Source: Tridacna crocea (Eukaryota > Mollusca > Bivalvia > Cardiida > Cardiidae). Taken from it: 64,000 nt of DNA. This document shows, piece after piece, positions 977 through 34,249 of this stretch. Below the pieces are notes generated by a model. The model was not told the origin of the DNA. It saw nothing but the letters and a program-made list of their open reading frames with translations, and searched no databases. Every line of letters begins with the position of its first letter. Positions within the stretch are counted from its first letter, which is position 1. Location: the NCBI GenBank assembly GCA_943736015.1, contig OX031058.1, forward strand, positions 3,301,001 to 3,365,000, written 5' to 3'. The translations under genes were made by a program, and so were the position numbers.

Positions 977-1790
977 GACAGGCTTAAGGATCTAATTTCT
1001 TGTGGTGGCTAAAACGTGACAATATACACTACCACTCGTCACTGTATTCTGTTTTCCCTACCTACTAGTATTATGGATCGATGAATCATGTATCAATCAG
1101 AGAGAGAGAGTGTGTGTGTGGAGGGAAGTATGGAGGGAAAACTAGATCAGGGAACAAGAGAGTGTGGAAAGAACAGAGGGAGAAATGGATGAGAGAGAAA
1201 CTATTTGACTAAAAAGTTGACTAAAGCTATCACTAAACGTGATTATACCCCCCCCCCCACAACAGCTCCTTGTCACAAAAACAGGTCACAGAATGCAGAA
1301 TGGTTTAGCACAAAAGTAAGAGTTGAAAAAAAAAGTTCACGGGGAGATAATTCCACAACAAATCGCAACAGGGTTATGAAAATTGCACATGGACAACTTC
1401 ATATTATAAATAGGAACCCTGTGTGTAAATTTGAGTTCACTATCTTAAAAGTATTGGAATATTGCTGCAGACAAATTTGTGTCTGCATACCATGACGATT
1501 CTAGTATACCCCCTACAATACATTGTGGTGGGTATGAAAAGTATCAAGTTGAATAAGAACAACAACTCAGTGGTATGTTTATGTATGAAAATATATCTTC
1601 TATACATTTATTTTCAATACAAAAAAAATTCAAACACAACAGATACAAAGGTTATAGTAAACAATGAGAAGCACATATTAAAAAGGTCACAATAGACTGA
1701 TGATTTCATCACAATTCATTTCCATCTTATGCATAAGATCTTGAAATTGTGTGGCAAAGAGCGATACACATTATGGGCCGTCCTCTGTGA
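977..1790. other. Left edge of duplicated segment, no recognised gene
   Basis: It contains GA/GT simple repeats near 1100, a C run at 1249-1257 and a stretch ending in ATTTATTTTCAATAC, which on the minus strand gives AATAAA. Frames in copy 1 are broken where copy 2 stays open for 164 codons. Codon content looks random, and I treat it as noncoding. Confidence 0.5.
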
Positions 1791-1794
1791 AAAA

Positions 1795-2028
1795 AGGGCT
1801 TGATCCCTTCCCAAACGACAAATTTTTAGACTGTACCAAATTCAAAGGATCTGCACACAACAAATCAAATATTGGTAATATGATGATTTTCAACTTTGAT
1901 AGGGTAGAAAATATTGTGGGAAAAGGAGAAAATGCTGGTTACCAGCATTTTCTCCTTTTCCCACAATTTTTTCTATAGGTTTCTTTCTCAGGGGCGTTAA
2001 AAGTCGGGATTGTGGGGTAAAGAATTAA
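1795..2028 (+). mobile_element. TTAA hairpin MITE, type A, diverged left end
   Basis: It has the family layout of long arm, hairpin (GAAAATGCTGGTTACCAGCA centre) and short arm. The left TTAA is lost; the right end is GGTAAAGAATTAA. Confidence 0.75.
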
Positions 2029-2183
2029 AGCATCTATGACAAGTTAGGAAAGATTTAATCAGGTCAGCATGCACAGTTTGTGCAGGATGATCTGAACTGT
2101 AACTTTTTGTTATTGATCAGTTTTCTGCATGTCAAAGTACCAAGTTACATCATGATTCATTCTGTTGTTAAAACAAAATCGCT

Positions 2184-2412
2184 TTAACTCATTACCACAC
2201 AATCCCTACTTTTAACACCCCTGTAAAAGAAGCCCTTTGAAAACATTGTGGGAAAAGGAGAAAATGCTGGTAACCAGCATTTTCTCCTTTTCCCACAATG
2301 TTTTCTTCCCTTCCTAAAAAAAATTTCAATTCTTTCATCACATTCATTTTGTCGTCTGCAAATGCTTTCAATTTGGACCAGGCTAAAATTTTGTCGTTTG
2401 GTAAAGAGTTAA
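2184..2412 (-). mobile_element. TTAA hairpin MITE, type A
   Basis: It is a full-length reverse copy with TTAA at both ends and an intact 33-base-arm hairpin. Confidence 0.88.
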
Positions 2413-2494
2413 TGGATACGTAACTATATGATAAGTTTCTTAGTATTACTCATCACGGAGTTAAATGTACATTAAAATCCTTTTTTGCCAGATT

Positions 2495-2780
2495 GTGGCT
2501 TATATGTGGCTTGCAGCACGTGAAAAGGGGCATTTGAAAATTCATGTATTTATAATATCGTCTCAGATCAGCATGCGCAGTCTGTGCAGGTTAATCCAAA
2601 ATGATGTTTTCTTTTTTTTATGCAATTTTCTATTTTGTGCAAATCTGCTTTAGAAAAAAATCTAATACAGTTGTAAAGTGCCATCTCAGATTAACCTGCG
2701 TGGACTGCACTAATCAGAGACAACACTTCGTGCAAATGTCCGCACACCCCTTTTTGCATGTTGCAAGTCATATACGTGAC
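2495..2780. mobile_element. GATCAG hairpin MITE, diverged
   Basis: The arms GATCAGCATGCGCAG and ATTAACCTGCGTGGACTGCA lie inside outer inverted ends (GTGAAAAGGGGCATTTG against CAAATGTCCGCAC...CCCCTTTTTGCA). Better-preserved relatives are at 26035 and 26728. Confidence 0.6.
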
Positions 2781-2850
2781 AACTTGTAATCACTGTGTAT
2801 TACATGCAGACATATCATCAAGTAGATAAGTGCAGAACATTTACCTTTCC

Positions 2851-3079
2851 TTAACCCATTACCGCACAATCCCTACTTTTGACGCCCCTGAGAAAGAAGC
2901 CTTTTGAAAACACTGCGGGAAAAGGAGAAAATGCTGGTAACCAGCATTTTCTCCTTTTCCCACAGTGTTTTCTACCCTTCCCAGACCAAATTTTAATTTT
3001 TCAATCACCTTTATTTTGTTGCCTGCAAATGCTTTCAATTTGGACCGGTCTAAAATTTTCTCATGTGGTAAACAGTTAA
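2851..3079 (-). mobile_element. TTAA hairpin MITE, type A
   Basis: TTAA is present at both ends. It shares its right TTAA with the next element, so two copies sit head to tail. Confidence 0.88.
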
Positions 3080-3284
3080 CTCCTTACCAAGCAAGCCCTG
3101 GTTTTCACGGCCATGGGAAGAAAAGCTTTGGAAAACCTTGTGGGAAAAGGAGAAAAAGTTTTCCCACAATGTTTTTCTATACTTTCAAATACAAACTTCA
3201 TAAATTGAAACATTTTTAATTTTTCTTCAACAAATGCTTTCAATATGGACCAGTCTAACATGTTGTTGTTTGGTAAAGAGTTAA
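3076..3284 (-). mobile_element. TTAA hairpin MITE, type A, shortened hairpin
   Basis: The hairpin centre has lost the ATGCTGGTAACCAGCAT part, leaving AAAAGGAGAAAAAGTTTTCC. TTAA flanks both sides. Confidence 0.8.
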
Positions 3285-3474
3285 TATCGTATCCAATGAC
3301 TTTTTCCTGGACCAGAAACTCTCCACTTGTTTAATTTCAAAGCTTTTGCAAGTAACAAACTACATTCTGCTTATCACTCTCTCGCACTACTGATCATTCC
3401 TATTCACCTCTATAGTTGACCCAGGAAGTAGTCCATCATGACGTGATATTTTCGTCACATGACCACAACTCAAA

Positions 3475-3600
3475 ATGGCGACACAAACGCCGGTGAAAGA
3501 AAGACCTATCAATTGTTTTGTGTGCTGTTCAAACAGCATACCGCCAATCAGACTTAGTGGTAGGAAATGTGAAAAAGAGGGATTTTCTGAAAAGCTTTAA
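3475..3600 (+). CDS. Short conserved frame with promoter-like upstream region, copy 1
   Basis: ATG sits in AAAATGGCGAC, a context typical of animal genes with a YY1-type start. Upstream are GGAAGT, TGACGTGA and TCACATGACC, which resemble ETS, CRE and E-box sites. The 41 residues include ERPINCFVCCSNS, IRLSGRKCEKEGF and end in EKL; the CxxCC and later Cys suggest the start of a zinc-binding module, but I recognise no family. The stop TAA lies in the TTAA where an A-type MITE begins. Copy 2 keeps the frame with three substitutions. It may be a first exon or a relic. Confidence 0.35.
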   Translation: MATQTPVKERPINCFVCCSNSIPPIRLSGRKCEKEGFSEKL

Positions 3601-3825
3601 CCCATTACCAAACGACAATAATTTAGGCTTGTCCAAATCGAAAGCATTTGCAGACGACAAAATAAAAGTGACTGAAAATTTGCAATTTATTTTGTGAAAG
3701 GTAGAAAACATTGTGGAAAAAGGAGAAAATGCTGGTTACCAGCATTTTCTACTTTTCCCACATTGTTTTCTAAAGACTTCTTTCTCGGGGGGTTCAAAAG
3801 TAGGGATTGCATGGTAAAGGGTTAA
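3597..3825 (+). mobile_element. TTAA hairpin MITE, type A
   Basis: It is full length, and its left TTAA supplies the stop of the 3475 frame. The copy 2 counterpart has lost most of the interior. Confidence 0.87.
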
Positions 3826-4320
3826 AGTCTTTTAAAGGGCAATAACTTGTTTTTTAATCTCACAAACTTAGATCCATTGGCGTGTCGAAACTGTTATATC
3901 GTTCAAGGGCACAGCCATTTTTTCTTACAACTGGCATAAGATTCTGTTTCAGTAAAGGAGCTTGAAAAAAATAGTTCCATTGTATACAGGTAAATTCATC
4001 AGTTTGAATGAAACTATAATATATCCAGAATCATATTTCCTTTGTCTACTTTATAATGTTACACATGAAACACTTAGAAAGTAATAAAAACATGTTTTCC
4101 TCGGTTTGACAAGATTCTTGTCATTTAGGTTGTTGCAGAGATGCTTGGTGAGAGTAACAAACGACAACTCTGCTCAGAGATTGGCTGTTTATACAATGTT
4201 GCTTGAGAATGAAATTTCTAATGGCTGATTTACACTGAGAACAAGCATAATTAACATGTAATAGATAATATCTTAAACCTGTTACAGTATACCTGTATAG
4301 AAAGGAACAATAATTGCACA
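3826..4320. other. No recognised gene
   Basis: This is AT-rich single-copy-looking sequence, conserved in copy 2 (31197-31693). No motif or repeat was recognised. Confidence 0.5.
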
Positions 4321-4547
4321 TTAACTCATTACCAAACGACAATATTTTAGGCTTGTCCAAATCGAAAGCATTTGCAGACGACAAAATAAAAGTGACTGAA
4401 AATTTGAAATTTGTTTTATGGAGGATAGGAAACATTATGGAAAATGGAGAAAATGCTGGGTACCAGCATTTTCTCCTTTTCCCACAATGTTTTCCATAGG
4501 CTTCTTTCTCAGGATCTTCAAAAGTAGGGGTTGTGCGGTAATGGGCC
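4321..4547 (+). mobile_element. TTAA hairpin MITE, type A
   Basis: The left TTAA is intact; the right end is eroded to GCGGTAATGGGCC. Hairpin loop GGTACC replaces GGTTACC. Confidence 0.82.
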
Positions 4548-4750
4548 TGACATTGCTATCCCTACAATTAACAAGAGTATCGAATGATAGGCGTGTAAAC
4601 GATTGGCTGCACTTTCTTTTTTAAGCCCTTTTTCTGCTGAATATGTTAACCTTGACATAGAAGCCTTCTGACCTGAATCTACAATGGTTGCAAAAGCGAC
4701 TATAGCTGTAAAAGGGGCTTTAAGGGCCAAGGTCCCTGCTGGAGCAAGCC

Positions 4751-5217
4751 TTAACCTTTTCCCAAACAATTCCTGGTTTTCGTGACCCTGTAAAAAAAAC
4801 CTTTTGAAAACATCATGGGAAAAGGAGAAAATGCTAGTAACCAGCATTTTCTCCTTTTCCAGCAATGTTTTCTTCCCTCCCAGAATGAATTTAAATTTTC
4901 CTAGTCATGTTAATTTTTGTCATCTGCAAATAAGCCTACTTTCAATTTGGACCTATCTACAGGCCTGTCAGAAGGAAATTTCATTCGGTCCGGCCAGTTA
5001 GGCGAGCGACGAAAAATTCCCCCGGAAAAAATTTGAAAATAAGACGCTCTCTGGTGCATTCTGGTGCATTTTTGGGGATTTATATTATGCATTTTTTTCG
5101 AAAATTGGTCCGGCCATTTTTCTTTCTTGGCCGAAAATTTGGTCCTGCCATGGCCGGACTGGCCGGACCACTTCTGACGGCCTTGGTCTAAAATTTTGTT
5201 GCTTGGGAAAGAGTTAA
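4751..5217 (-). mobile_element. TTAA hairpin MITE, type A, hosting a nested insertion
   Basis: TTAA is present at both ends. A separate element (4960-5186) interrupts the long arm; the copy 2 version (32123-32358) lacks it. Confidence 0.85.
4960..5186. mobile_element. Nested MITE with AGGCC-TCAGAAG ends
   Basis: This GC-richer insertion of about 227 bp is absent from copy 2. Its ends are mirror-like (AGGCCTGTCAGAAGG and CTTCTGACGGCCTT), and TCTA flanks both sides but occurs once in the empty copy 2 site, so the target duplication is 3-4 bp. The interior repeats TCCGGCCA words. Confidence 0.8.
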
Positions 5218-5357
5218 GAACTACAAAGGTAAAATAAAGCAGCTGTCTGTATACAAGCAAGTGTGCTTTTTTCCTTTCAAAATGCTTACTACATAATATC
5301 AGGAAGTATTTATATGTATTTGTTCATGAAAATCATTGTTCTTCCTTGACACTTAAT

Positions 5358-5586
5358 TTAACTCATTACCAAACAACAATATTTAAGACTAGTCCAAATT
5401 GAAAGCATTTGCAGACGACAAAATAAAAGTGACTGAAAATTTGAAAGTTGTTTTGTGAAGGGTAGAAAACATTGTGGGAAAAGGAGAAAATGCTGGTAAC
5501 CAGCATTTTCTCCTTTTCCCACAATGTTTTCTAAAGGCTTCTTTCTCGGGGGCGTCGAAAGTAGGGATTGTGTGGTAATGGGTTAA
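5358..5586 (+). mobile_element. TTAA hairpin MITE, type A, present only in copy 1
   Basis: It is full length with a perfect hairpin at 5465-5531: 33-base arms around one centre base. Copy 2 (near 32502) has a single TTAA in matching flanks, a clean empty site. Confidence 0.93.
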
Positions 5587-5789
5587 CAGGTTTAAAAATT
5601 GGCCAAAAATATTGCAGTATTTCCTTCTTTGTTATGCTCTGACACACAGAAACCTATTATCAATATACAAAGAATAAAAACTGGTAGCATTTTTTTTTTT
5701 CACAAGCTTATGTAAGTGTCTTTTTCGGATTAGCTACATGTGCTTCATTTTGAACTACGGTAGATATTTTGTGTACTGATAAAATTGCA

Positions 5790-6018
5790 TTAACCCTTTA
5801 CTCGATAGATACTCATTTGTACGCATTGCTTGTAGAAGCCTTTGGAAAACATTGTGGCAAAAGGTGAAATTGCTCGTGACGAGCAATTTCACCTTTTGTC
5901 ACAATGTTTCTCATGCTATCAAAAGGTGTCATATACACATAGGAAACGGCTTCATCCTCGCTGTTATTTAGGGTCAATTAGAGATACCATAGAAATGCCT
6001 TATGGAGTAAAGGGTTAA
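5790..6018 (+). mobile_element. TTAA hairpin MITE, type B
   Basis: TTAACCCTTTACT ends flank a hairpin of the second type (GGTGAAATTGCTCGTGACGA). Outer arms differ from type A, with CATATACACATAGGAAACGG in the right arm. Confidence 0.87.
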
Positions 6019-6196
6019 CAAAGATTTCTGATTGGTCAAAAATGTACACTGTTAGTGTTTACTCTAAGGACACCAGCCTATTTGTGCACAAATTTGCTCT
6101 TTCTATCTTTTCAAAAGACATTTCTTGTTTTTGATCCCCCTTGATCAGATTGCATAACAAGACTGAGAACTATTTACACAACATTGAGGAATATCT

Positions 6197-6416
6197 TTAA
6201 CCCTTTACCACTCAATATCGAGTTTTAACAACCCTGAAGAAGACAGCTTTTGAAAACATGGTAAGAAAGGGAGAAAATGCTGGCAACTAAATTTCCTCCT
6301 TTTCCCACAATTTTTCTTATCCTATCCAGTACAAATCCCACTATTTTAGCCACATTTGTCTGCCACTGCTTTCATGTTGGACAAGCCTACGTTTTTATTT
6401 TGTAGTTAAGAGTTAA
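6197..6416 (-). mobile_element. TTAA hairpin MITE, type A, diverged
   Basis: TTAA ends are kept, but the hairpin is damaged (GCTGGCAACTAAATTTCCTC). Confidence 0.75.
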
Positions 6417-6504
6417 ATGGTTTAAAATCAGCCATACATAATGATCTATTTCCTTCCATATACATTATGCTCTTAAACTTTTAAAATCGATTTACAATGA
6501 AAGA

Positions 6505-7010
6505 AAACAACAGGGCCATGATGACTCTGAAGTGGAGTCCCTCACCTGAGGCTTTGGATTAAACATGACCCATTTCCAATCTCTTCAGAGATATTAAGAC
6601 AAACATTTTGACAAACACACATTAATATTGCACTCACAAATATGGCCTCTGGAGTGCAGACAAGCCTTTTCTAGAACTTGTCTCAGCGGCCTACTTGATA
6701 TGTAGAAATTATCCAAACATACATTCTGACATCAGGAATATTTGAGAGAAAACGTGTCCTGTAGGGTGTACAACAGGTTTTTCCAAGATTTGACCTACTG
6801 ACCTAGTTTTATAACCAACATGACCCATATTCATACTAGTCTAAAATATTATCAAGACAAACATTCTCAGCCAATTTCAGAATTATTAGACTGAAAATGT
6901 GGCCTCTAGAGCGTACACAAAATTAAAAATTGACAATGCACGGTAGACATAGCACAATCACAATAGCTCACCATGAGCACTTTGAGCACTTTGTACTCAG
7001 GTGAGCTAGA
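6505..7010. mobile_element. CACCTGAG repeat with 3' hairpin and CTAG end
   Basis: It starts near GGGCCATGATGACTCTGAAG...CTCACCTGA and ends GAGCACTTTGTACTC then AGGTGAGCTAG. Relatives lie at 7330 and 22505. The end layout (short hairpin, about 11 bases, CTAG) recalls Helitrons. Confidence 0.6.
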
Positions 7011-7124
7011 AAAGGAAAAAAATAGTAAGTAGATTTTTTACAAGTGCCTTCTCCTTTTTAAATTCCCCACCAGACTGAGTAACATGTACAAGCTGTACTA
7101 TTTACAAAACATTGTGGCAGACTT

Positions 7125-7322
7125 TTAACCCTTTATTATACAACCCCAAGTTTGAACAACGCTGAAAAGGAAAGCTTTTGGAAACAATGTGGGAAAGGGA
7201 AAAAATACTAGGAAACAGTGTTTTCTCCTTTTCCAACAATGTTTTCTATCATATCCAGTAACAAGTGCAGCATCTGAACCATACTAAAATTGACTGACAT
7301 TTGAAAATGTTTTCTATTTGAA
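7125..7322 (-). mobile_element. TTAA hairpin MITE, type A, degenerate
   Basis: The left TTAACCCTTTA is present. The hairpin is imperfect and the right end is lost near the next CACCTGAG repeat. Confidence 0.65.
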
Positions 7323-7329
7323 CATGTCT

Positions 7330-7615
7330 AGGAATTAGATGACCCTGAAGTTGCTCACCTAAGCCTTTTGAGCAAACATGATCCATTTTAGAACTAAGCC
7401 TTTTGAGCAAACATGACCCATTTTCAAACTAATCCAAGATATCATCAAGAAAAACACTCTAATAAATTTTCAAGAGTATTGGACAAAAAATGTGGACTCT
7501 AGAGTATACGCATGGTGAAAGTTGATGATGCAAAACAAACAATGCACAATGCACTACAGATGACGCATGACAGACGCCCTACACTTTGTGCTTAGGTGAG
7601 CTAAAAACAGATGAG
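7330..7615. mobile_element. CACCTGAG repeat, short copy
   Basis: It runs from AGATGACCCTGAAGTTGCTC to CTTAGGTGAGCTAAAA, with a 33-base tandem duplication containing AAGCCTTTTGAGCAAACATG near 7365-7430. Confidence 0.55.
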
Positions 7616-7749
7616 CTAAAAATATGGAATTTAATATCAGCTATAAAAGGGTAGAATCAATCCTTTTATACTATTTATGCAAACAAAAACTATTGGCAAG
7701 GCTCCTTATAAATCATCCTTTGTATATCATAATGCAAACAATACATATT

Positions 7750-7982
7750 TTAACTCCTTACCAAACAACAATATTTTAGACTTTTCTAAATTAAGTAAAT
7801 TTAAAGCACTTGCAGACAACAGATTAATCGTAACTAAAAAGATGAAATTTGTCTTTTCTATACTGTAGAAAATATTGTAGGAAAAGGAGAAAATGCTGGT
7901 AACCAGCATTTTCTCCTTTTCCCACAATATTTTCAATAGCCTTGGAGTTGTTAAAAGTTGGGATTGTGTGGTATAGAGTTAA
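7750..7982 (+). mobile_element. TTAA hairpin MITE, type A
   Basis: It is full length with an intact hairpin; the stem ends are AATATTGT rather than ACATTGT. Confidence 0.86.
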
Positions 7983-8052
7983 TGGCTCACTTTTGACCAT
8001 GTATTTGTACTCTTGATCAATCTAGGGCTATTTAAGTCTTCTTATTTGTTTC

Positions 8053-8281
8053 TTAACTCTTTACTACACAATCCCGACTTTTAATAACCCTTAGAAAGAT
8101 AGCTTTTGAAAACCGTGTGGGAAAAGGAGAAAATGCTGGTAACCAGCATTTTCTCCTTTTCCCACAATGTTTTCTTCCTATCCAAAATTGAATTTAAACT
8201 TTTGATTCACATTTGTTTTGTTGTCTACAAATGCTTTCAAGGTGGACTAGTCCAAAATGTTGTTGTTTGGTAATGAGTTAA
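8053..8281 (-). mobile_element. TTAA hairpin MITE, type A
   Basis: It is full length with TTAA at both ends and adjoins another diverged member sharing the TTAA at 8278. Confidence 0.86.
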
Positions 8282-8465
8282 CCTAATCCTACATGTAAGT
8301 TTTGACAACTTTGAAAAAGAAGACTCTTTGAGCAGCATTTTCTCCTTTTTCCACAATGTTTTTATATTCAAGGAAAAATAATTTTCTCGAAATATGTAAG
8401 TTTTATTGTCTTTCAATGCTCTAACACTGAAGAGTCTACAAGTTTGTTATGTGGAAATGTTTTAA
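8278..8465 (-). mobile_element. TTAA MITE remnant
   Basis: TTAA is present at both ends. Only one hairpin arm remains (GCAGCATTTTCTCCTTTTTC). Confidence 0.6.
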
Positions 8466-8829
8466 CCCATGGAGTGCAGTAAACACCAAACAAAAATTTT
8501 CAGTCAAAAAATGGCAAATGTTATAGTTTCTTAAAAAATTGTGGATTATAATAATGTTTCTGCTATACAGACAATTCAAATCAAATACAAGACAGCATCT
8601 TTTGTTCAGCCTGATCTTTATCTACACTGGAGAAGAAGCAACTTCTTTTCATAAAAAGAGCTTTAAGGTTTAAGAACTAACAAAAAAAACCTTCTTTGAT
8701 TTCATCTAAATAAGACTTACTACAACAAACAAATTTGCATTGGACTTTTCACCTTTCCTGTGTTGGTCTCAAACTCGTTTTATCTTGGAGTAGTAAAAAC
8801 AGCAGATTCTGATAGTTTGTTCTAAAGCA
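8466..8829. other. 3' flank of Shisa-like copy 1
   Basis: This is AT-rich and conserved in copy 2. It is likely 3' UTR or downstream DNA of the minus-strand gene; a candidate AATAAA is nearby at about 8402. Confidence 0.4.
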
Positions 8830-9057
8830 TTAACCCTTTACTCCATAGATACTCATTTCTACTCACTGCTTGTAGGAGCCTTTGAAAACATTGTGGCAAA
8901 AGGTGAAATTGCTCGTGACGAGCAATTTCACCTTTTGCCACAATGTTTTCTCTGCTATCAAAAAATGTCATATACACATAAGAAATGGCTTCATCCTTGC
9001 TGTTATTAAGGGTCAATTAGAGATACCATAGAAATGCCTCATGGGGTAAAGGGTTGA
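8830..9057 (+). mobile_element. TTAA hairpin MITE, type B, only in copy 1, next to a stop codon
   Basis: A perfect B-type hairpin lies inside TTAA...TTGA ends. Copy 2 has no element at this site. The element ends 14 bases downstream of the stop codon of the Shisa-like gene, so the copy 1 mRNA probably carries the hairpin in its 3' UTR. Confidence 0.9.
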
Positions 9058-9071
9058 CAGAGTTTTGGAAG

Positions 9072-9283
9072 TTACTGCGAATTGACAACATCACTGTACT
9101 TTGGTGGATCAAACCCTTGGTTGGTATTTCCTGGTTGCATCCCTGGTTGTAGTGGTTGTGGTTGTGGTTGTGGTGGTGGCTGTTGATAGCCCATTGGTTG
9201 GTAGCCTCCAGGTGGATAAGCAGGTGGCTGCTGTATGTATGGTTGCTGGATATATGGGGTCTGCACCGTGGCCATCGGAACAG
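9072..9283 (-). CDS. Exon 4 of Shisa-like copy 1 (Pro/Gln-rich tail)
   Basis: The acceptor is TTCTGTACAG. It encodes VPMATVQTPYIQQ, YPPGGYQPMGY, alternating PQ repeats and the end FDPPKYSDVVNSQ before TAA. A candidate AATAAA on the minus strand lies near 8402, so the 3' UTR probably crosses the B-type MITE at 8830-9057. Confidence 0.88.
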
Positions 9284-12200
9284 CTGTACAGAAAAAAATA
9301 TATAAATTAAAGTTCACAGTTATAATTAAGAAAGTTATGGTATTTAATCCTTTACCCCAAAATCACAAGTTTTAACCACCCCAAGGAAGATGCCTTTTGA
9401 AAACATTGTGGGAAAAGGAGAAAATGCTAGTAACCAGCATTTTCTCCTTTTCCCACCATGTTTTCTATTGTACATGTATCATGGACAAATTTCATCATCT
9501 GAGCCAAGTTCAGCAGTCACAAGGTAATACTTTCAAATGCTTTCAATTTGGACAAGTCACAAATTTTGTTGTTTTGTTATGAGGTTAAGTCACTTACCAG
9601 TTCCAGTCGTTGTGACCACCTGGCCAGCTCGTCCACGGCTTTTCCTCATGCAACAACAGCAGGCAACGATGACGGATACAACAAGGCCGACAAATATCAG
9701 GCTACCAATCACAATGCCAGCGATCATGCCAGCTTGCCTATATAATACAAAGAGAAGGCCATTTAACTCATTACCAAACGACAATATTTTAGACTGGTCC
9801 AAATTGAGAGCATTTGCAGACGACAAAATAAAAGTGACTAAAAATTTGAAATTTGTTTTGTGAAAGGTAGAAAACATTGTGGGAAAAGGAGAAAATGCTG
9901 GTTACCAGCATTTTCTCCTTTTCCCACAATGTTTTCTAAAGGCATCTTTCTCAGGGGCATCATAAGGAGGGATAATGTGGTAATGGGTTAACCAGTTATT
10001 TACCACACAATACCGAGTTTTAACAACACTGAGAAAACATAGACTTGAAAACATAGTTGGAAAGGAGAGAATGCTGGTTACCATGACAAAACTTCGCGAC
10101 CGGGTCGTGAACTATGCACAAACTGTTCACGAACTCATCGTGAACTCATCGAGACGACGCAGGAGGATGCATGCCAGTGTGTGCCATGCCACAACTGTCA
10201 CGAACTGCCATGAATAGTTCACGAACAGCTCACGTGGAGTGCACGAGTAGTTTACGACATGTTCACGAGCAGTTCACGACTATTACGCGACAGTGGCGCT
10301 TGCGTCGGTGCAGGGGTGTATATATAGGGCTTCCTGGACACTGCTTGCCATTCCAGAGATCGCCAGCGAAGAGACACCTTATATCACAGAGACAAGATGC
10401 CTAAAACAAAGCAGACATGACCCTCCCAGTTTGTGCCCCAAAATGGCACGACTTGCCACAACAAAACCGTGGTCAAAAGTCGTGCGAGTGTCAGCCTTGC
10501 TTTACATAATCCGTATGCATTTACCAGTACACTACATTTCCCACATATTTCATGTAATATTGTATTGTGTTCTTACTTGGAGGGGGGTACATCACAGGAA
10601 TTACAGTAGTATTGACTTTTGACAAAAGTTCCGATAAAAAAGGGGTTAGCTGCATGAAGCAAATAGAATATTTTTGCTTTTTACATGAAAGCTTGAGATT
10701 TGTTTCATTTCATAACATAATCAGAAATATTTTCCCCATGGCTTGACAAATAAATTTTGATCCTTTATCTATGAGAAAACAAAATTAATATCCTCTATGT
10801 CTTTTGATAGCCAAATCTGTTGTTCTTTGATTCAGCTGTCTTTAGATATAGATAGGCCTTACCCGATAAACCTCTTTTTCTCAGTAGACATTTAGGTTTG
10901 TGTTCGATATAGCAGGTCTAAGGTCACAAACTGTCACAGACTGTGACCAGATAATTTATAAGCCCCACTTGATTATATTTATATTGTCAGTGGCAGTTTG
11001 TAACTCTAAATCTGTATTCCTGAAAACAAACATTCATATAAACTGTAACTGAAAGGTTTATCGAGTTAGACAGCATTTTGAACCTTCTATTGATAACAAT
11101 GAATCTATAACTAAACTTTCTGCCAATTACCAATTACCGATACCTAGACAGGCTGTATTTTTTTTTTTACTTTGATGACAGATTGTTTAACCCTTTACCA
11201 CACAATCCCCACTTTTAATGACCCTGAGAAAGAAGCCTTTTGAAAACATTGTGGTAAAAGGAGAAAATGCTGGTAACCAGCATTTTCTCCTTTTCCCACA
11301 ATGTTTTCTACCCTTTCAAAGTCAAAATTCAATTTGGATTCACATTTATTTTGTTGTCTGCAAATGCTTTCAATTTGGACAATTCCAAAATTTTGTCGTT
11401 TGGTAAAGAGTTAATGGTAACCTCTCACATTTTTTGAGGCAGATTAAGTCAGAGTCGTTTTTAACATTATGTCACATGATAGATATAGAGGTACAGCTTT
11501 TTGGAGAAGCACAATATTAGACGAACCCACATTGTTCAAGTATTACAGCGTAAGACTTATAAACACCAAGTTTCAGGTTGGTTGAGGGTGTGGGTTTGAT
11601 TTCTGCAGCTGGCAAGCTAAGCTCTAGTTCCCCCCTTAACCCTTTACCCCATAAGGCATTCCTATAGTATCTGTAATTGACCCTGAATAACAGCAAGGAT
11701 GAAGCCGTTTCTTATGTGTATATGACACCTTTTGATAGTATAGAAAACTTTGTGGCAAAAGGTGAAATTGCTCGTCACGAGCAATTTCACCTTTTGCCAC
11801 AATGTTTTCCAAAGGCTCCTACAAGCAGTGCGTCGAAATGAGTACCTATGGAGTAAAGGGTTAAAATTTCCCTGTAAAAAGATTTATAGCCTTCAGAAGG
11901 CGTTGCTCATATGGGCAACCAGTGGCAACAATAAATAATGCACTTTAATTCATACTAATTAATTATGTAAGGCTATGTAATTTTTATGTACAAGTCTAAG
12001 GAAAACTCTATTAAGCTGGCCTTTGACAAGCCTAATAGCATTTTTTCTTGACAAGTTTTATAAGATTTTTATCTCATACACAAACGAATGTCAGATTCTT
12101 TTTATCACATTATGTCATAACGTATTTATACAAATCGTAGATCAGAAGTTGCAAACCATCGATAGATAGATGCACACACGGTAACATTCATCACAAACCC

Positions 12201-15200
12201 ATTCACTTCTATGATAAACGTACATAATGACATCAAAAATGATGTCACACAAAAGTGATATAGAGGGTATTTGTTTTTTTCGGTGAAAGATCGAAATTTA
12301 TTTCATCGAGTGGACACCATCACGAGTGGCACAGCCTTGAGTGAAATATTACCGACGGTGTTCACGAGATAAATTAAATTTTGATCTTTCACCGAAAAAA
12401 ACAAATATTCTATTTCGTTCATGCTTTTAATCCTTTCTGGGAGGAGCTTTATCAAAATCCAGTACAGTTCTTTTCCCTTATTTCCCGTGGCATACCCCTC
12501 CCGCATAGCAACGCATAACAATATTGTGTCAAGCACAAGAAATCTAAAGGTAAATGACGTTATATTTCCCATCTGGTTGTGAGGCCCGCGCAATTTACCT
12601 AGGCAACAAGAACATGAAAATCGGTATTTTCACTGGTGGTACCAGTGTAAGATCGAGAAATATTTTCACTGCTATTTCTCGATATCCTACCGGAAAGCAT
12701 GAAATAAATTAAGGTAGCAGACCCATAACACAGTGTAGTGCAACATGGAATAAAATTTCTTGACAGTTGATAAATACAGATATACACAGATATAATGCTT
12801 TTCCACATTTTTAACCGACGAGAAATTCCTTTGATGTCTATCTTGAAATTATTTGTTGATACTTTTGTTATTTTTCAGAAAAAGGGAGGTAATTATTTTC
12901 TCCCTTTGTAATGAGAGTATAGTGTTTTTAGATTTATAAATGATAATTCTAAGAAGGAAAAATAAGGAAAAAGAAGCACGGTTAACTCTTTACCAAACGA
13001 CAAAATTTTAGACTGGTCCAAATTGAAAGCACTTGCAGGCGACAAAATAAACGTAACTCTAAAATTGAAATTTGTTTCCAACAGGGTAGAAAACATTGTA
13101 GGAAAAGGAGAAAATGCTGGTTACCAGCATTTTCTCCTTTTCCCACAATGTTTTCAGAAGGCTTCGTTCTCAAGGTCGTGAAAACCAGGGATTGTTTAGG
13201 AAAGGGTTAAAGAAGTACAATAATACTCATTTTTAATCATAGCAAAATTTTTAAGATAATATTATAGTGGATATAGCTGTTGTCTATAACAGGTCCACTA
13301 ACTTAACATAATTTAATACCACACAATCCCTACTTTTGACGACCCTGAGAAAGAGGCCTTTAGAAAACATTGTGGAGAAAGGAGAAAATGCTGGTAACCA
13401 GCATTTTCTCCTTTTCCCACAACATTTACTACCCTGAGGGAAACAAAGTTCAAATTTTCAGTCACTTTTATTTTCTCGTCTGCAAATGCTTTCGATTTGG
13501 ACCAGTCTAAAATTTTGTCGTTTGGTAAAGAGTAAAAAGTGTATGAGATAAGAAAATTCATAAAGGGTATATTACACTGAAAACAAGGGAGGTTATGTGA
13601 TAAAGTAGACCTGTACATTTACATGACTTGTGTAATAACACGTGTGCAGTTAACCATAGAAACAGTTTAACCTTCACGTCAGAGCAAAACTTAAGATAGT
13701 TTCACACTGAGTGAATTTACAGAGGCCAATTAAAATGTTTTTCATAATTATAATGGCATTGTTCTCGAAGAGGTAGAAAACACTGTGGGAAATGGAGAAA
13801 ATCCTGGTGATCAGCATTTCTTCTTTTTCCACAGTTTTTTCAAAAGCCGTCTTTCTCAGGGTCTTTAAAGGTGGGTAACTAGAATTTTCACATCACACCA
13901 AATCAAAAAATATATATATCACTGAAATTTATATGAAAAAACAATACAAATCTTCAATAATTAAGAATCATAAAACTACCAAAAAATTTTCTTTGGTGGT
14001 ATTTCCTTAAAAGGCTACGTAGCCTCTTAAGCTATTTTTAGATTTCGCGCCAAAAATAAAAAAAATGCATTGTGGGAATGTTAAGTGACTGGCACGTGAC
14101 TTAAAACGCTTAAATTCCATTACATAACAAACATGTAATCATTTTTCATAATATCTTCTTCTGACGCTATGTTTGAAGCTTCATCTGTGTATTTCCAGTA
14201 TGTAAATGAGCAAGTTGGTCATGTAAAAATAGAATGTGTTTCCCGTCGATGTCGACCTTGGTCGTAGTAAATTTCTAATTTCTCGTGTTATCGGATGGTT
14301 TTCGACTACTGGAGTTTTATGAATGACGATTATAAGGCTTTGGGAGTATAAGGACAATATTTTTGTATTTTTGTAAAATTTTCGTCCCAAATTCTGAAGG
14401 GCCACCTTTAAATGTCGGAACTGTGTGGTTAAAAACTTAAGAATAACAATATTTTTTGAGGATCTCTACATAGGTAAATAAAAGATTTACCATTTGTACA
14501 AATCTTTACCAAACAACAAAACTGCAGACCTGTCCAAATTGAAAGCCTCTGCAGAATACATAGTTAACTTGGTTCTAAAGACTGAAATTGTCTTAGGTTA
14601 GAGAACATTGTAGGGAAAGGAGAAAATGCTGGTTACCAGCATTTTCTTTTCTTCCCACAATGTTTTCAAAAGCCTTCGTTCTCTAGATTATTCCCCAGCC
14701 TCGGTAGCTCAGTTGGTAGCATACAGGACTTGAGAACAGGGGGTCGTGAGTTCGTTCCCCAGCTCGGCCAATTTCTTTCCTAGGATTGATGATAGTCATG
14801 TTCCCTGGCTCGGCCAATTTCTTTCCGAGGATTGATGATAGTCATTGTGACAAGATTCATTCCTCTCTCACAGCTGACTGTTGTTTCAACAATGGTTATG
14901 TGGGAAAGAAGCCAGTGGCTTGGAAAGAATATTGTGCAGAGTACTGATAATAGAAGCTCCAGGAAAGCATGGATAGGAGCACTGGCAGCCACAATATAAC
15001 TGAAATAATGTTGAAAATGGCATTTAACACCATACAATCAATCAATCTCTAGGTTATTACAGCATGAGACTGTGTTGTAATGGGTTTCATGCAGACAAGA
15101 TGGTCATGGAATGAAGAGAAAGAGACATGCTTACTCTGCATGCCTCCGTCGGTGTGTTTGCTGGTCTTTTACACAGCTTAGATCAAACATTTCTCTGATA

Positions 15201-18200
15201 GTAACTAATTAATTTGTATGGGGTGTTTAATGTGATTTTCAACATTACTTCAGATATATTGTGGCGGCAAGGGCACCTATCCATGCTTTCAGTGCTCTCA
15301 ATAAGGACCCATGTCAGGAATTTTTATAACTCCATCTTCAAATTTTAGGTTTTTTTTTTTTTAAACTCAGGAATCTTTAATTGCCGCCACAATGTTTTCT
15401 TAGACTTATTTATAAGATTTATATTGATTGTGTCGTGGAATGACTAACCTTTATTGTGCGGAGAACTGGTAAAAGAAACTCCAGGAAAGCAGCTTTCCTG
15501 GAGTTTCTTTTACCAGTACTCCGCACAATATTCTTTCCAAGCCAGTGGCTGCTTTTCCACATAAACATCGTTGAAACATTGATCAGTGGTAAGAGAGGAA
15601 TGAATCATGTTGCAATAACTATCATCAGTCCTCCGACAGAAACTGGCAGCATGTGCGGATCCAGATATCTTTCTCAGGTGGGGGTGGGGGGGGGGGGGAG
15701 TGTGTCTCACCGAAAGCGCACTCGTCTTATAATAATGATGATACTTTGATTTCCGGATCCAGTTCTAACCATGAGGAGGTCTCCATATTTAGAACCTTTT
15801 TTTTTAACTTATGACTGTATTTTACATGGATGCTGTGCGATATCAAAACTAGTACCATTTCACGAATCCGATAACTACATTTTTGCCAAAATTCCAGGAG
15901 AGGGGGGTCAGGAACCCCCCCCCCCCCCCCCCAGATCCACCTGTGGGCAGGACCAGGGACCAAACCAGCAACTCCCTGTTCTCAAGTCCTGTACGCTTCT
16001 CAGTACTCACTGAGCTCAGCATTATTAGTTGTACGGTCAGGTGGCAGGGGACTTGGGAACTTGTTCATGGCTGTGGTGAATCATGTCGCCGCAAGCCGAA
16101 GGCCGTACAACAAGTTTATTATACATGTACTGTAAAGTTTTACCCTTTCAATGCACTTTAAGTGAAACTTTCCTGTATTATAATCTCACAAATTGAGTAT
16201 GCTGATGAAACAGAAATTCCCTTCTGAGTGCCCCAATTCAATGAAAACTAACGTCACCTGAAACTGACGTCACTAAAACGTGCAGTTTGGTGCATAAATG
16301 TGCACTCTGGTGATCAATCAACGCCGCCATTTTGGATGTTGAGTTGCACACGTGTTCCCAAAATGTTAATAGAAGCCATCTTTCTCAGAGTCCTGAAAAC
16401 ACAGGATTCTTCGGTAAAGAATGATGACCTTTGACAACCCTTAGAAAGAAGTCTATTTAAAACATTGTGGCAAAAGGAGAAAATGCTGGTAACCAGCATT
16501 TTCTCCTTTTCCCGCAATGTTTTCTACCCTATCATTGAACAATTGCAACATTTGAGCCACATTGAAATTGTCCTCTGCAAATGCTTTCGATTCCGACAGG
16601 GCTAGAATTTTGTCGTCTGATAGTGAGTTAAGTGTAACTTGATCTCTAGTTATCATCCTCCTCGGAACCCAGGTTAAAAGCATTATGTTACTCTCTATAC
16701 AATGAAACGAAACTGGGTCAACAAGGATGAGTTTCATTTACTTACCTGCCAATACAACAATATCGGTCGTAGTTCGAGCCACAACAGCCATGTTCACACC
16801 AGAATGTCTCTGAGGAATCGAAAAAATCTGTGGAATGATCTGTGCACCATTCACCTCCATGGACGACTGAAAATGTAAAAAAAAAAGGGCAGCCATGACC
16901 TATTGGTAATGTTAACTCTTTACCAAACGACAAATTTATATTGGTCCAAATTGAAAGAATTTGCAGACAACAAAATGAGACTAAAGAATTGAAATTTGTT
17001 TCAGGAAGGGTAGAAAACATTGTGGGAAAAGGAGAAAATGCTGGGTACCAGCATTTTCTCTTTTTCTCATGGTGTTTTCAAAAGGCTTAGGCTTCTTTCA
17101 CAGAGGTGATAAAAGTAGGGATTGTGTGATAAAGGATCAACCCTGAAGTATACCAGAATGCAAAATTTTAGCCTTGTTGAAAATGAATAAATTAATTAAA
17201 TTTGCAGACAACAATTTCAATGTGGCTCCAATGGTGCAATTCTTCTTTGACAGGATAGAAAAAAGAGAAATTGCTGGTTACCATAATTTTTTTAAATGGC
17301 TTCTTTCCCAGACAAAGTCGGCACTGTGCGCTAAAGGGTAAAATCTAAAATATTTCCATCCAAGACAAGGTCGACAATGTGCAGTAAAGGGTCAAAATCT
17401 TAAATATTTTCATCACAAAATTCTCTGTGGAGCATCTCATATGAATTATTTATTTTATGTTTGATTAAGGGTAAACATATGAATTGGATAATAGGATATA
17501 TAGAGGATATACTTTTTCTGAAGGTGAAAGATCAAAATTCATTTCAACGACTGAACATCATAGGTAATATTTACACAAATGGCACAGCCACGGGTGAACA
17601 TATTACACATGTTCACGAGATGGAAATATATTGTTCTTTCACCAAAAAAAAGGGAATGTTCTATTCATTTCATTCTTTTACTCTTTACCACACGATGACG
17701 ACTTTTAACGCCCCTGAGGAAGAAGCCTTTTAAAAACATTGTGGGAAAAGGGGATAATGCTGGTAACCAGCATTTTCTCCTTTTCCCACAAAGTTTTCTA
17801 CCCTTTCAAAGCAAAACTGCATGAAATTGCCTCTTTGAAATTGTCTGCAAACATTAATTTTTCAAGTTGGATCTATAGGTCTAAAGCTTTGTAGGAACGG
17901 GTTAACTTAATGGGGAACTTGATCCAAATGCAGTACAGTTCTTTTTGGTTTTTCCCCATGACGTACCCCCTCTGCATAGCCACACATTACAGTATAACGT
18001 CAAGCGCAAGAAGTATAGTGTTAATTATATCATATTTCCAACTGTTTGTGAGGCATGTGCATAGAGCACAGGAACAACTATTTCCACCTTCAATTGAAGA
18101 GTTAGAATGAAAAAATCGGTATTTTTCGCCGGTTGTAACCATGAAACATCGAAAAATATTTAAATAATATTTCTCAATAACTTTCCAGAAATCATGCAAT

Positions 18201-21200
18201 AAAAACCCAGATCTATCTGTTGCATTACCGAATGTGATCCTTGGTGACATAGAGCACAGGAATTTGACATTTTATAACAAAAATAAATGATCAAATATGA
18301 AAAAAAAAAAATCTCCCCTATATAATATAAACAATGTTTATATTATATAGGTGAGATTTTTTTTTTCATATTTGATCATTCATTTTGGTTATAGAATGTC
18401 AAATTCCTGTGCATAGAGGAGACCTAAATTCTCCATCAAATTTTCAGAATGTGACTTCCCCATTTGATTTACTTGACTCTGTCTATAGATCTACCCAACA
18501 TTGCGCATTTTATGTTTTTTTTATGCATGCTGTTGTAGGTCTTGTATGCTGCTGATTGGGCAGTTTTTTCAACTAACCCATTACCAAGCAATCCCATTTT
18601 CACCCCTTAGAAAATTGGTTTCTGAAAAAATTGTGGGGAAAAAAATCTGCACAATGAATATCAGAAATGAAAAATAAGGATGTAGTGGCTCATGAATAAG
18701 AAAAGGAAATGACACAAATTGTTACGGTAACATATGAAATTTAACTCTTTACCAAATGACAAAATTGTAGACTGGTCCAAATTGAAAGCATTTGCAGACG
18801 ACAAAATAATTGTGACTAAAAAATTGAAATTTGGTTTGGGAAGGGAGAAAGTATTGTGGGAAAAGGAGAAAATGCTGGTTACCAGCATTTTCTCCTTTTC
18901 CCACAATATTTTCCAAAGGCTTTTTTTTTCAGGGTCATTAACAGTCGGGATTGTGTGGTAAAGATTTAAAGATCTTGTACATAAGGACAGGGTTGGTATA
19001 TATATCGTATATACCATCCCTGGTAAGGAAATTGGAATCTTTCACTCATGAAAATTTTGAACTTACAGATCAAATCCAAGCAATCACATACTGAAAGCTA
19101 CAGGTGATTATGTGCCTCAAATGGTAAACACTCTCACTGAACGAGAAAAGAAAATATTGTGGGAAAAGTGGTCGAATAAATATGTCTGTAGATCTAAATC
19201 TTTTATATAGGTGACTATGCAACCAGGGATCTTGGAGGGGAAGAAAATGATTGTAAAATAGTCCAGATAGATCTAGATCTACAATTACCAGCATTTTCTA
19301 CTAGTTATCCAACAGTGTTTTAAAATTCAGCTTTCTTAGAGCCAATATAATGTGTGGATGTGTGCACAGGCCAATAATTGTGAGAAATTATGTTGTGATG
19401 TATGACGTTGGGTGGATTCACGACCAGACGCCCAGCTAGCTCATTTAGTAGAGCTGTGGTACTAGTGTTCTGGGGGTTGTAGGTTCAAGGCCCACGTCGG
19501 GCACTCATTTCTCCCTTGATCTATTTCATTGCCAACGAGGTAAATTGGTGAATGCAGGATGCAGCACCTGTGGTCCATGGGGACTGAAGGGTAGTTGATT
19601 ACTCCCAAAAAATCAGGAGGGGGGAGTGTTGTGATATTATAAGACGTTGGGTGGACTCACAACCAGATGCCTGGATAGCTCAGTAGGTAGTACAGATAAC
19701 TGTCCCCAAAGGCGATGTTACTTTTTGACTGGTCGCCTCTGGACTTGAGACGGTACGGTGTACAGTAAATGTCCAAATATGAAAAAGATCACTGGAGCGT
19801 CTGTCTCATTATGAGACGCCCCGGTGATCTTTTTCATATTTGGATATTTACTGTACATCGTACCGTACCAGAGGCGACCAGTCGAAAAGTAACATCGCCT
19901 TTGGGGACAGTTATCTGTACTACGGAGCGTATCATTATTGAGACTAGCTCTGTAGGTAGAGCTGCGGAAGTAGTGTTCCAGGAGTCGTGGGCTCGAGTCC
20001 TGCATTGGGCACACTTTTCTCATTTACTTCAGATAGTAGAAAAGTCTACAGATCTAGTTCCCATGTCAGCCTGCATGATCTCAACAGTCTGATCATAATC
20101 TACAGTGCAGTTTAAAACTAAAAGCCAGTTTAAAGGTGGCCCTTCAGATCTTGGGACGGAAATATCAAAAAGATGCAAAAAAATCATCCTTACACTCCCC
20201 AAGCCTTTTAATTTGCCTTCATAAAACCCCAGTAGTCGAACACCATCCGACAGCACAGAAATGAGAGATTTACTACGGCCCAGGTTGACACCAACGGGAG
20301 ACACGTTCTATTTTTAGATAATCAATTCGCTCATTTATATACAGGAATACACAGATAAAGTTTCAAATATAGGGTCCGAAGAAGACATTATTGAAAATAA
20401 TTATTACATGTTTGTTATGTAATGGAATTTAAGCGTTATAAGTCACGTGCCAGTGACTTGACATTCCCAAAGTGCTTTATTGACTTTTGGCGGGAAATCT
20501 AAAAATACCTTAAGAGGCTACGTAGCCTTTTAAGGGAATACCATCAAAAAAAATTTTTTCTGTAATTTTACGAGTCTTACTTATTGATGATCTGTATTAT
20601 TTTTTCATATAAATTTTAGTTGTATATATGTTTTTTTAATTTGGTGAGATGTAAAAATTCTAAATACCCACCTTTAAAGCCTGTCAAATTAATTAACTCA
20701 TTACCAAACGACAAAATTTTAAGCTTGTCTAAATCGAAAGCATTTGCAGACGACAAAATAAAAGTGACTGAAAATTTGAAATTTGTTTTGTGAAGGGTAG
20801 AAAACATTGTGGGAAAAGGAGAAAATGCTGGTTACCAGTATTTTCTCCTTTTCCCACATTGTTTTCAAAAGGCTTCTTTCTCAGGAGCATCAAAAGTAGG
20901 GATTGTGTGGTAAAGGGTTAACCATATATTAAAAGCCAAAGATCTAACCCTTTGGCTGCTAAGCGCTACTCGATGACCTATGGCGGACAATGTAGATTAA
21001 GATCAGACTGCACAGAACGTGCAGTCTGATCTTGGGATCTACATTGTCCGATAAGGAGATGCTTTTCTTCAAAAAACAATAATTATATAGCAACATTTGA
21101 GTGTTTACTTCATCTTTCGGTTTTAAATTTCATTCATTTTACTTTGCAGTAGCTCTAAATCTATCAAGAGTTTATGTCAGAACTACATTCTACAGTGTAG

Positions 21201-21329: not shown

Positions 21330-22504
21330 TTTATATGTAATTTTCTGGTTTATGAAAAGACCGTGTCATTTAGATCTACCTGGATATTTCGCAATATAGT
21401 CCATACAACACAGTATGGATCAATGAATCAAGTCATGTATGTTACTATTTTTAGGCGACGCGGATGAAAAATCTGACTGTCCTGTTTCCGGTCGTTTTCG
21501 GTATTATCCGTTCCCGATCGATTTCGGCATTTAGCGACTCGTCCCCCGTTCCCCCTCCCTCCAAAATTCTTTAACAGTTTTTTTTATCTAAAACCAACTA
21601 GAGAAGGGGGAGTTTTCAATCATTTTCTGCATAGGAAAAATATTTGAAACTTGCTTTTTGTCCTACTCGACCTTTCAGATAGTTTTGCACATTAAATAGA
21701 TCTATATATTCCATCGATCCGTTGTAAGTTTGGGTGAAAGCGTCCCTCTTGATTTAAATCATCGAGTCGACGAACAATTTTGGGGTTCAAGACTGTGACA
21801 TAATAATCATCAGTGTAGGTTCAGCGAGAGGCATGTTATTAATTTAGGTAAATTATAGTTTTGGCCCCAAAAGATGATATCCTATCCATGTAAAGATCAG
21901 TCTAGTTCGGAAAAGGTTAAACAAACAAGTCGATGGTGAAACATCGGAAGACAGATCTAGATACCTGATAGATCTATATAGCCTGAAGTATTTTCATCTT
22001 GACCACCAAAATTTAAGATCTAGAATCCAGATCTACTTTTTTTAAATTTCTGCAAAGCTTTATTAAAGTTTGGAATTGACAAATCACCTACCCTCTATAC
22101 ACACACCATAGCAAAGTGCATAGATCTCCTTTTCCCATATTTTTATCTACTCTTCTCAAAATAAATTCCAGTTTCTCAGTCAAATCAGGGATCATAATTA
22201 TATACATATACTATCCCTGGACAAATGCATACATGTACATTTTGTTGTTGGAAATGCTTAGAATTTGGACTGGTATATAGATCTAATTTTGTAGTTTGGA
22301 AAAGAGCCGATTAAATCTTATCTCGAACACCAGCCCCTACCAGGTCCTACATATCACAGTCTCTGCAAATTTTTACCAATACTCTGGTAATGTTCCGAGG
22401 ATGTATATCATTTTTAACAAAGTGACGTCAGAATCTATGCAAGGAAACAACGATCACACAGGGGTCATAGAAAACTGCTTACAAAGGGAAAATGGTGACA
22501 AGGA
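21330..22504. promoter_or_regulatory. Upstream region of Shisa-like copy 1
   Basis: This precedes the gene on the minus strand and should hold its promoter and 5' UTR. No TATA box stands out near the start codon. GATCTA words are frequent. Copy 2 is conserved. Confidence 0.35.
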
Positions 22505-23043
22505 CAAACAAGAGGGCCAAGATGGCCCTGAATTGCTCACCTGAATTTTTGAGAGGACCAGAGCCACGAAGTGCTCATGGTGAGCTTTTGTGATCGCCCA
22601 GTGTCCGTCGTCCACAATTTCTTTAAACATCTTCTCCTCCTAAACCACTGGGCCAATCTTGATGAAACTTGGCAGGGATGTTCCTTAGGTGAAGCTCTTC
22701 TAATGTTGTTCAAGAGATTGAATTCCACCCATAACTCTGGTTGCCATGGCAACCAAAAGGAAAAAAATAGCAAAATCTTTTAAAATCTTCTTCTCTGGAA
22801 CTAGAACGTGTAGAGCTTTGATATTTGGTATGCAGCATCTCCTAGTAGACCTCTACCAAGATTGTTCATATGATGCCCCTGGGGTCAAAACTGACCCTGC
22901 CCCGGAACATTCCAGCCAAGTTTGGTCCAAAGTGGCCCAGCGGTTTAGGAGGAGTTGATGTTTAAAGAATTGTTGACGACGCACGACGGACACCAGATGA
23001 TCCTAAAAGCTCCCCTTGAGCACATTGTGCTCAGGTGAGCTAG
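22505..23043. mobile_element. CACCTGAG repeat, longest copy (segment copy 1)
   Basis: It starts GAGGGCCAAGATGGCCCTGA...GCTCACCTGAA and ends with hairpin GAGCACATTGTGCTC then AGGTGAGCTAG. The interior has TTGATGAAACTTGGCAGGGA. Confidence 0.75.
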
Positions 23044-29299: not shown

Positions 29300-29527
29300 G
29301 ATCCCTTCCCAAACGACAAATTTTTAGACTGTACCAAATTCAAAGGATCTGCACACAACAAATCAAATATTGGTAATATGATGATTTCCAACTTTGATAG
29401 GGTAGAAAATATTGTGGGAAAAGGAGAAAATGCTGGTTACCAGCATTTTCTCCTTTTCCCACAATTTTTTCTATAGGTTTCTTTCTCAGGGGCGTTAAAA
29501 GTCGGGATTGTGGGGTAAAGAATTAAA
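29299..29527 (+). mobile_element. TTAA hairpin MITE, type A (pair of 1795)
   Basis: It has the same eroded left end as in copy 1 and an intact hairpin. Confidence 0.75.
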
Positions 29528-34245: not shown

Positions 34246-34249
34246 GTGT

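Follow-up and report, generated by a model that had tools for sequence, protein, structure and literature searches.

Hairpin MITEs of the MADE1/mir-548 type give rise to microRNAs, and a central palindrome of 67 bp is, to our knowledge, no known hallmark of MITEs of the piggyBac superfamily. In Acropora, small, TTAA-flanked elements related to piggyBac have been described under the name CMITEs; in the part of the article available to us they are about 100 bp long with an interior of 75 bp, for which a consensus of 60 bp is printed, and across families the terminal repeats are less conserved than this interior (PMC2872659). The authors propose that the conserved interior serves transposition, and the same text gives CC[C/T]T as terminal motif of piggyBac MITEs (PMC2872659). 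For piggyBat, the accessible text states that transposase domains bind as a dimer to an imperfect palindrome, and that the ends of piggyBac carry 19-bp palindromes (PMC11707139).

A TTAA-flanked family with a long central palindrome was analyzed in 64,000 nucleotides of the bivalve Tridacna crocea (GCA_943736015.1, contig OX031058.1, positions 3,301,001 to 3,365,000), a stretch called the window here. The copy at 5358-5586 is a 229-bp element running from one TTAA (5358-5361) to another (5583-5586), with the central palindrome as its core. The hairpin around a single center base that had been predicted at 5465-5531 is a perfect inverted repeat, and its arms are 35 bp long (5463-5497 and 5499-5533) instead of the predicted 33 bp. 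The layout of the element is 107/33/1/33/55 bp for left arm, stem, center, stem and right arm, the outer arms including the TTAA. The window also contains a segmental duplication, with two copies of about 22 kb each that are about 27 kb apart, have 18,981 mapped bases with 2.9% substitutions, and differ by several MITE insertions. The features are:

5358..5586, + strand: MITE copy of type A with TTAA at each end; the other duplicate has an empty site
5362..5464, + strand: left outer arm, element columns 5-107
5465..5497, + strand: left stem arm, columns 108-140; pairing extends 2 bp further outward
5498, + strand: center base, A here and T in most type A copies
5499..5531, + strand: right stem arm, columns 142-174
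5532..5582, + strand: right outer arm including the terminal inverted repeat
32499..32502, + strand: empty TTAA site in the other duplicate, matching the insertion 5358-5586
994..23185, + strand: segmental duplication, first copy, used as clock
28462..50110, + strand: segmental duplication, second copy

The elements are short, homogeneous in length and, judged by the list of open reading frames, non-coding, as is typical of MITEs, and the 229-bp layout is common to the types A and B. No tRNA was found in the window, no Rfam family matched it at gathering thresholds, and the 10 of its 21 open reading frames that were compared with Pfam gave no convincing domain, the sole row being FANCI_S4 with 15.8 bits at a cut-off of 25.3. 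Searches with the hairpin in collections of viral contigs and of genome contigs retrieved no match, and therefore the evidence comes from the genome of Tridacna crocea alone. Judged by its target site and in part by its ends, the family is likely a non-autonomous, TTAA-inserting DNA transposon of the piggyBac type. Two clean empty sites document the target site duplication. The motif CCCTTT stands at both ends of the type B consensus and at the right end of the type A consensus; most type A left ends read CTCTTT or CTCATT, and some right ends CCCATT. An autonomous piggyBac-type partner would be expected to have the ends TTAACCCTTTACC.

About 70 copies had been predicted for the window. As a raw count this was correct: a tolerant hairpin scan yielded at least 71 rows, two of which (51764 and 51767) belong to a single hairpin. 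With a profile of the whole element, 105 matches were obtained, divided 52 to 53 between the two strands; they cover 31% of the window, and 67 of them span more than 200 columns. The number of independent copies is smaller, because the window holds the segmental duplication of about 22 kb. A genome sample of 200 kb was drawn from the 1.05-Gb genome of 31 contigs; it consists of twenty stretches of 10 kb that start at round coordinates and are spread over 11 contigs (C1-C7, C9-C12). This sample contains 232 matches covering 19.9% of its sequence, with 0 to 30 matches per stretch and 5,729 matched bases in the stretch from C10. If it is representative, the family has about 1.2 million matches genome-wide, and one group of TTAA MITEs may make up about one fifth of the genome. 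Neighboring copies can be very close; 13 such neighbors among the 105 matches are at most 6 bases apart, and copies abut at 51128-51650, 52534-52975, 53242-53665 and 55711-56156, as if the TTAA of one copy had been the target of the next. The window contains further long, near-perfect palindromes of unrelated sequence with arms of 28-80 bp (15452-15530, 41357-41435, 45888-46048, 26197-26255 and 51973-52043), of which the first two look like mutual duplicates and have, by score, 1 and 3 mismatches. Deletions inside the MITE palindrome occur in the copies 3075-3283, 17151-17342, 44367-44581, 50143-50355 and 51442-51650, at least the one at 44367 being confined to one duplicate, which suggests that the palindrome is unstable.

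With moderate confidence we favor the explanation that selection for mobility, acting among source elements, has preserved the palindrome as a DNA site that is symmetric or folded. The parents of later copies would then be enriched in elements whose palindrome is sound and close to the consensus. During mobilization the palindrome would act in cis, be it as a duplex of two-fold symmetry that is bound by a dimeric transposase or by a host protein, or in the form of an extruded cruciform or hairpin. When only one arm changes, this might be tolerated for a while and the change later be matched or lost, which would generate covariation without repair in place. The filter would thus lie in the choice of the copies that become parents, and resident copies would decay after landing.

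The history of the family is recorded in its subtypes, which differ at several stem positions, as had been predicted. Compared to the consensus of type A, type B has pair 14 changed from G-C to C-G, pairs 21 and 26 from A-T to T-A, and pair 31 from G-C to C-G, so that all four differences are pair swaps and none is a transition. Type C shares pairs 26 and 31 with type B and in addition has C-G instead of T-A at pair 8, a change that is also present in a part of type A. Representative copies are:

8830..9057, - strand: type B copy, 33/33 paired; no counterpart in the other duplicate, whose empty site lacks a clean TTAA
11636..11864, + strand: type B copy, 32/33 paired; duplicate at 38303-38531
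5790..6018, - strand: type B copy; duplicate at 32706-32934
53242..53469, + strand: type C copy, 33/33 paired
57252..57479, - strand: type C copy, 32/33 paired
53838..54067, + strand: type A copy in which pair 14 is privately compensated (A-T instead of G-C)

The claim that a change in one arm is always matched in the other is true of the changes that define the subtypes, but not of private ones: by parsimony, 138 of 151 events on terminal branches are one-sided and break a pair. Events that preserve or restore a pair account for 6 of 15 on internal branches versus 10 of 151 on terminal branches, all counts being taken from an uncollapsed tree. Two members of the same four-member clade as 53838 (3598 and 4322) have A.C at pair 14, possibly an intermediate toward A-T, for which parsimony counts separate events.

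The predicted compensatory pairs are clearly present. In an alignment of 42 independent stems (39 distinct; 9 of 51 copies had gaps or indels and were excluded), 9 of the 33 stem pairs have two-sided changes versus a mean of 3.5 in shuffles (0/500), and 27 cells have such changes versus 5.6 (0/500). Pairing is found in 95.4% of the cells, with G.U counted as a pair, and drops to 51-61% when the partner is slid. The 150 hairpins of the genome sample contain 21 covarying pairs (shuffle mean 14.1, maximum 20) and 102 covarying cells (mean 26.4, maximum 45). When only the 45 copies of type A are considered, covarying pairs are not more numerous than in shuffles (6 versus 3.9, 132/1000), which is a point against selection among source elements; the covarying cells are in excess (14 versus 5.7, 0/1000), chiefly via pair 8, and the share of paired cells is likewise reached in 0/1000. 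The consensus sequences of types A and B are identical at 58/66 stem positions, at 36/94 positions of the left interior and at 18/38 of the right interior; the likeness is at shuffle level on the left and above the 95% level of shuffles on the right. A separate origin of the palindrome in types A and B was considered and rejected on account of the base-exact layout of 107/33/1/33/55 in both.

The segmental duplication allows resident copies to be followed over a common interval. Five sites have a copy in one duplicate only: a clean single TTAA is present opposite 5358-5586 and 12982-13210, TTAG opposite 20694, the site opposite 8830 is not clean, and 44910 is without a clear site. Insertion after the duplication is the simplest reading of the clean empty sites, while precise excision is possible. 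It had been claimed that most copies are perfectly paired, and this turned out to be wrong. Mismatch-free stems are found in only 5 of 48 independent A/C copies of the window with at least 100 arm and at least 60 stem columns, at most two mismatches in 27 of these 48, and mismatch-free hairpins in 14 of 150 in the genome sample.

In 22 duplicated copies, 614 stem pairs are Watson-Crick pairs that are identical in both duplicates, 54 mismatched pairs have been kept in both, 19 differ on one side only, with the consensus pair in one duplicate and a mismatch in the other, and 3 are mismatched differently. Compensated or re-matched non-consensus pairs number zero in this set. A restoration to the consensus pair is indistinguishable from a new mutation and could sit among the 19 one-sided pairs; however, arm-to-arm conversion should yield new pairs about as often as restorations, and their absence therefore argues strongly against in-place repair of the palindrome, which is undetectable in resident copies. 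The original prediction had offered concerted repair as one of two explanations, and for resident DNA it is contradicted by these data. By the rule of three, conversion to new pairs is estimated at no more than about 1/18 per 2.8% divergence, or 1/9 when restorations are included, a rate that would hardly hold the pairing over the larger divergence between types A and B without a filter. In agreement with decay after landing, the number of mismatches rises with age (Spearman 0.69 with the nearest-neighbor arm distance, n=118, genome sample).

Repair of the palindrome at each transposition is also unlikely, as is exemplified by the following copy:

12982..13210, + strand: type A copy with the stem mismatch G12A; present in one duplicate only, the clean empty site opposite lying near 39661-39664

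The mismatch G12A is common to this copy, 59265-59493 and 63607-63837, which belong to a four-member clade (support 78) whose fourth member, 61388, is without it. If 12982 is an insertion, it is younger than the duplication, and a mismatch shared within the clade would thus have passed through transposition. G12A is also present in 7751, 14501 and 26495, and a recurrent mutation is possible. Barring such recurrence, the shared G12A means that near-perfect pairing is not required, which counts against selection among source elements.

The outer arms have drifted more than the stem, as was predicted: the mean pairwise difference among the 48 window copies is 0.30 for the arms versus 0.12 for the stem. 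Since the duplication the difference has been small, with 30/1586 substitutions in stems, 104/3747 in arms and 369/13475 elsewhere, i.e., a stem/arm ratio of 0.68 (P=0.07; stem versus non-element DNA P=0.047); the pairs 13309/39763 and 13680/40126 are included in this comparison. Without CpG the P values are 0.14 for stem versus arm and 0.12 for stem versus the rest, and a context model, applied to a slightly smaller set, expects 36.3 stem changes where 27 are observed and 92.7 arm changes where 89 are observed. A weak effect in place on resident stems is therefore possible and counts against pure source selection. Thus, stem and arm rates have been close since the duplication, yet the family history contains a clear excess of paired changes.

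For the older history, one outer arm served to build the trees, and the lengths of their branches were estimated from the other arm and from the stem; in this way the stem is measured against sequence that had no part in shaping the tree. On internal branches the stem/arm ratio is 0.15 and 0.27 in the window (43 copies) and 0.11 and 0.14 in the genome sample (102 copies). Along source branches the outer arms have thus evolved about 4 to 9 times faster than the stem, and the contrast sets in abruptly at the stem border. On terminal branches the ratio is 0.33-0.43. Compared to the post-duplication value of 0.68 the internal ratios have approximate z values of -2.6 to -5.3, which are rough, since branch lengths were treated as counts, and which stem from poorly resolved trees of about 160 arm columns from one genome, represented by one window and 200 kb. 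The selection that had been predicted as the second explanation is thus supported for source elements rather than for resident copies: stem conservation is strongest on internal branches, and mismatches build up as resident copies age. Its target may be the folded form or a symmetric duplex site.

Several observations on rates count against this explanation. The terminal ratios of the genome sample are also below 0.68 (z -2.2 and -2.6; P 0.03 and 0.01), which we interpret as a remnant of source history on long tips that the tree does not resolve. Young clades have few private changes in their stems (24/1188 versus 136/2674 in arms), and McDonald-Kreitman-type contrasts between subfamily consensus sequences are not significant.

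Over nearest neighbors the stem/arm ratio in the genome sample is 0.49-0.63. Type B has a similar contrast within itself, its differences from the consensus numbering 22/775 in the stem versus 109/1847 in the arms (P=0.0008; 12 copies, including one partly deleted copy from a locus found by similarity and excluding one further locus and the second duplicates). In favor of source selection, conservation is step-like at the stem border, the columns 108-112 at the stem end being about as conserved as the middle; column identity is 0.88 in the stem, about 0.76-0.79 in the tip columns 5-18, and 0.71-0.79 in the right tip. A smooth gradient centered on the hairpin, as conversion would lead one to expect, was rejected in view of this sharp edge.

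The foremost rival explanation is that template switching or arm-to-arm conversion, i.e., quasipalindrome correction, both makes and keeps matching arms without any selection. According to the accessible text of a published proposal, template switching can create and maintain hairpins (PMC8794818), and the tree contains several double changes on single branches (6 terminal, 4 internal). In addition, most changes of the center base lead to its complement, the outcome expected if the middle were inverted. Among the independent window copies with good arms and a changed center, 7 of 8 have A instead of T (8 of 10 when partial copies are included); in the genome sample, from which partial copies were left out, the change is T to A in 12 of 23, and in type B it is C to G in all 3 cases among 11 copies. 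The pooled fraction of T to A, 19/31, exceeds an expectation of 26% estimated from the duplication spectrum (P 4e-5) or of 36% from singletons (P 0.004). This complement bias is compatible with a palindrome middle that is inverted now and then, whether through template switching, cruciform exchange or recombination between inverted copies. However, the bias is weak in the genome sample alone (P 0.007 to 0.08, depending on the expectation used), center flips between the duplicates are 0/24, and the 22 duplicated copies show persisting mismatches and no conversion to a new pair. Furthermore, template switching would keep the pairing, but not the sequence, and stems on source branches are slow in sequence as well. 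As sole explanation it is therefore unlikely, but it is possible that template switching supplies paired changes, which are then filtered by selection.

Ectopic gene conversion, in which breaks induced by the palindrome are repaired from other copies and the core is homogenized genome-wide, would account for a conserved core with diverging arms, and the scattering of the T-A to C-G change of pair 8 over several arm clades and the extreme copy density are in its favor. It appears improbable, because the stem differences between the duplicates are single-base, without tracts toward the consensus, and one pair that changed on both sides between the duplicates is mismatched in both. In addition, mismatches climb steadily with age, and conservation shows no steady fading from the center toward the stem ends.

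We give equally little credence to the absence of any function, i.e., to a few source lineages that had good palindromes by chance, with stem conservation resulting from low mutability and from detection by a stem-rich profile. It is true that the type A stem consensus is without CpG and mutates somewhat less, to which the post-duplication ratio of 0.68 corresponds, and that the profile favors copies with intact stems. But internal branches have a still lower ratio of 0.11-0.27, most stem bases are common to types A and B although their left interiors have no similarity above shuffles, and paired changes exceed those in shuffles. Selection for an RNA hairpin, as small RNA precursor or structured transcript, is the least credible alternative: the element folds very stably as RNA (-99.9 kcal/mol, z -11.9) and likewise as DNA (z -11.6), but the mismatches show no G.U-type preference (52 G.T versus 49 A.C, P=0.84), the window lacks an Rfam match, and resident copies are not visibly maintained.

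If the palindrome was kept by selection among source elements, a symmetric duplex site would be the simplest reading by analogy, given the dimeric binding of piggyBat transposase and the 19-bp palindromes of piggyBac (PMC11707139). In the same partly available article an internal piggyBat transposase site lowers the activity, which counts against source selection (PMC11707139). The cruciform is the bolder version. More tentatively, and with a rather low probability, the 67-bp palindrome might be a structural cis-element, and mobilization via an extruded cruciform or a multimeric symmetric complex would keep both pairing and sequence in the source line. If the cruciform reading were true, the complement-biased center would be the trace that extrusion and inversion leave in vivo. 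Beyond this choice, two levels of apparent hairpin maintenance, the transposing lineage and the resident DNA, have been separated. The segmental duplication used as a clock places the maintenance in the transposing lineage, whereby the purpose of MITE interiors becomes directly testable, in a very large family that makes up about one fifth of the sampled genome.

In the titles and abstract openings of the open-access literature that was searched, no MITE with a covarying internal palindrome was found. The CMITEs of Acropora are the nearest precedent that we encountered; as far as the available text goes, they have in common with the family of T. crocea the TTAA, the relation to piggyBac and an interior that is more conserved than the termini (PMC2872659). 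The same part of that article describes no covariation, and the printed coral consensus, compared by eye, is neither palindromic nor like the interior found here, where the element is palindromic and has 229 bp instead of about 100 bp. Hairpin MITEs of the MADE1/mir-548 type differ in that they match curated small RNA families, of which the window contains none at the gathering thresholds of Rfam. The T2-MITE/Kolobok elements of Xenopus also target TTAA and have long-lived MITE subfamilies, but their ends are given, in the accessible text, as AGGRR, AG or RR after the TTAA, compared to TTAA-CYC here (PMC6004289). Hairpins that arise by template switching, as outlined in the available part of the respective article, likewise have matching changes in both halves, and the loop inversion expected for them has a counterpart in the center flips; in contrast, no conversion was detected between the duplicates here (PMC8794818). 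With MITEs of the piggyBac superfamily the elements share the TTAA and, after it, CCCTTTAC at the consensus right end of type A and at both consensus ends of type B, while most left ends of type A differ and begin with CTCTTTACC or CTCATTACC. The transposase sites of piggyBac and piggyBat, as far as described in the accessible text, are similar in being palindromic DNA within the element that is placed asymmetrically to the tips (107 and 55 bp here), but they are 14-19 bp long and close to the ends, whereas the arms of the palindrome described here are 33-35 bp long and nearly perfect (PMC11707139).
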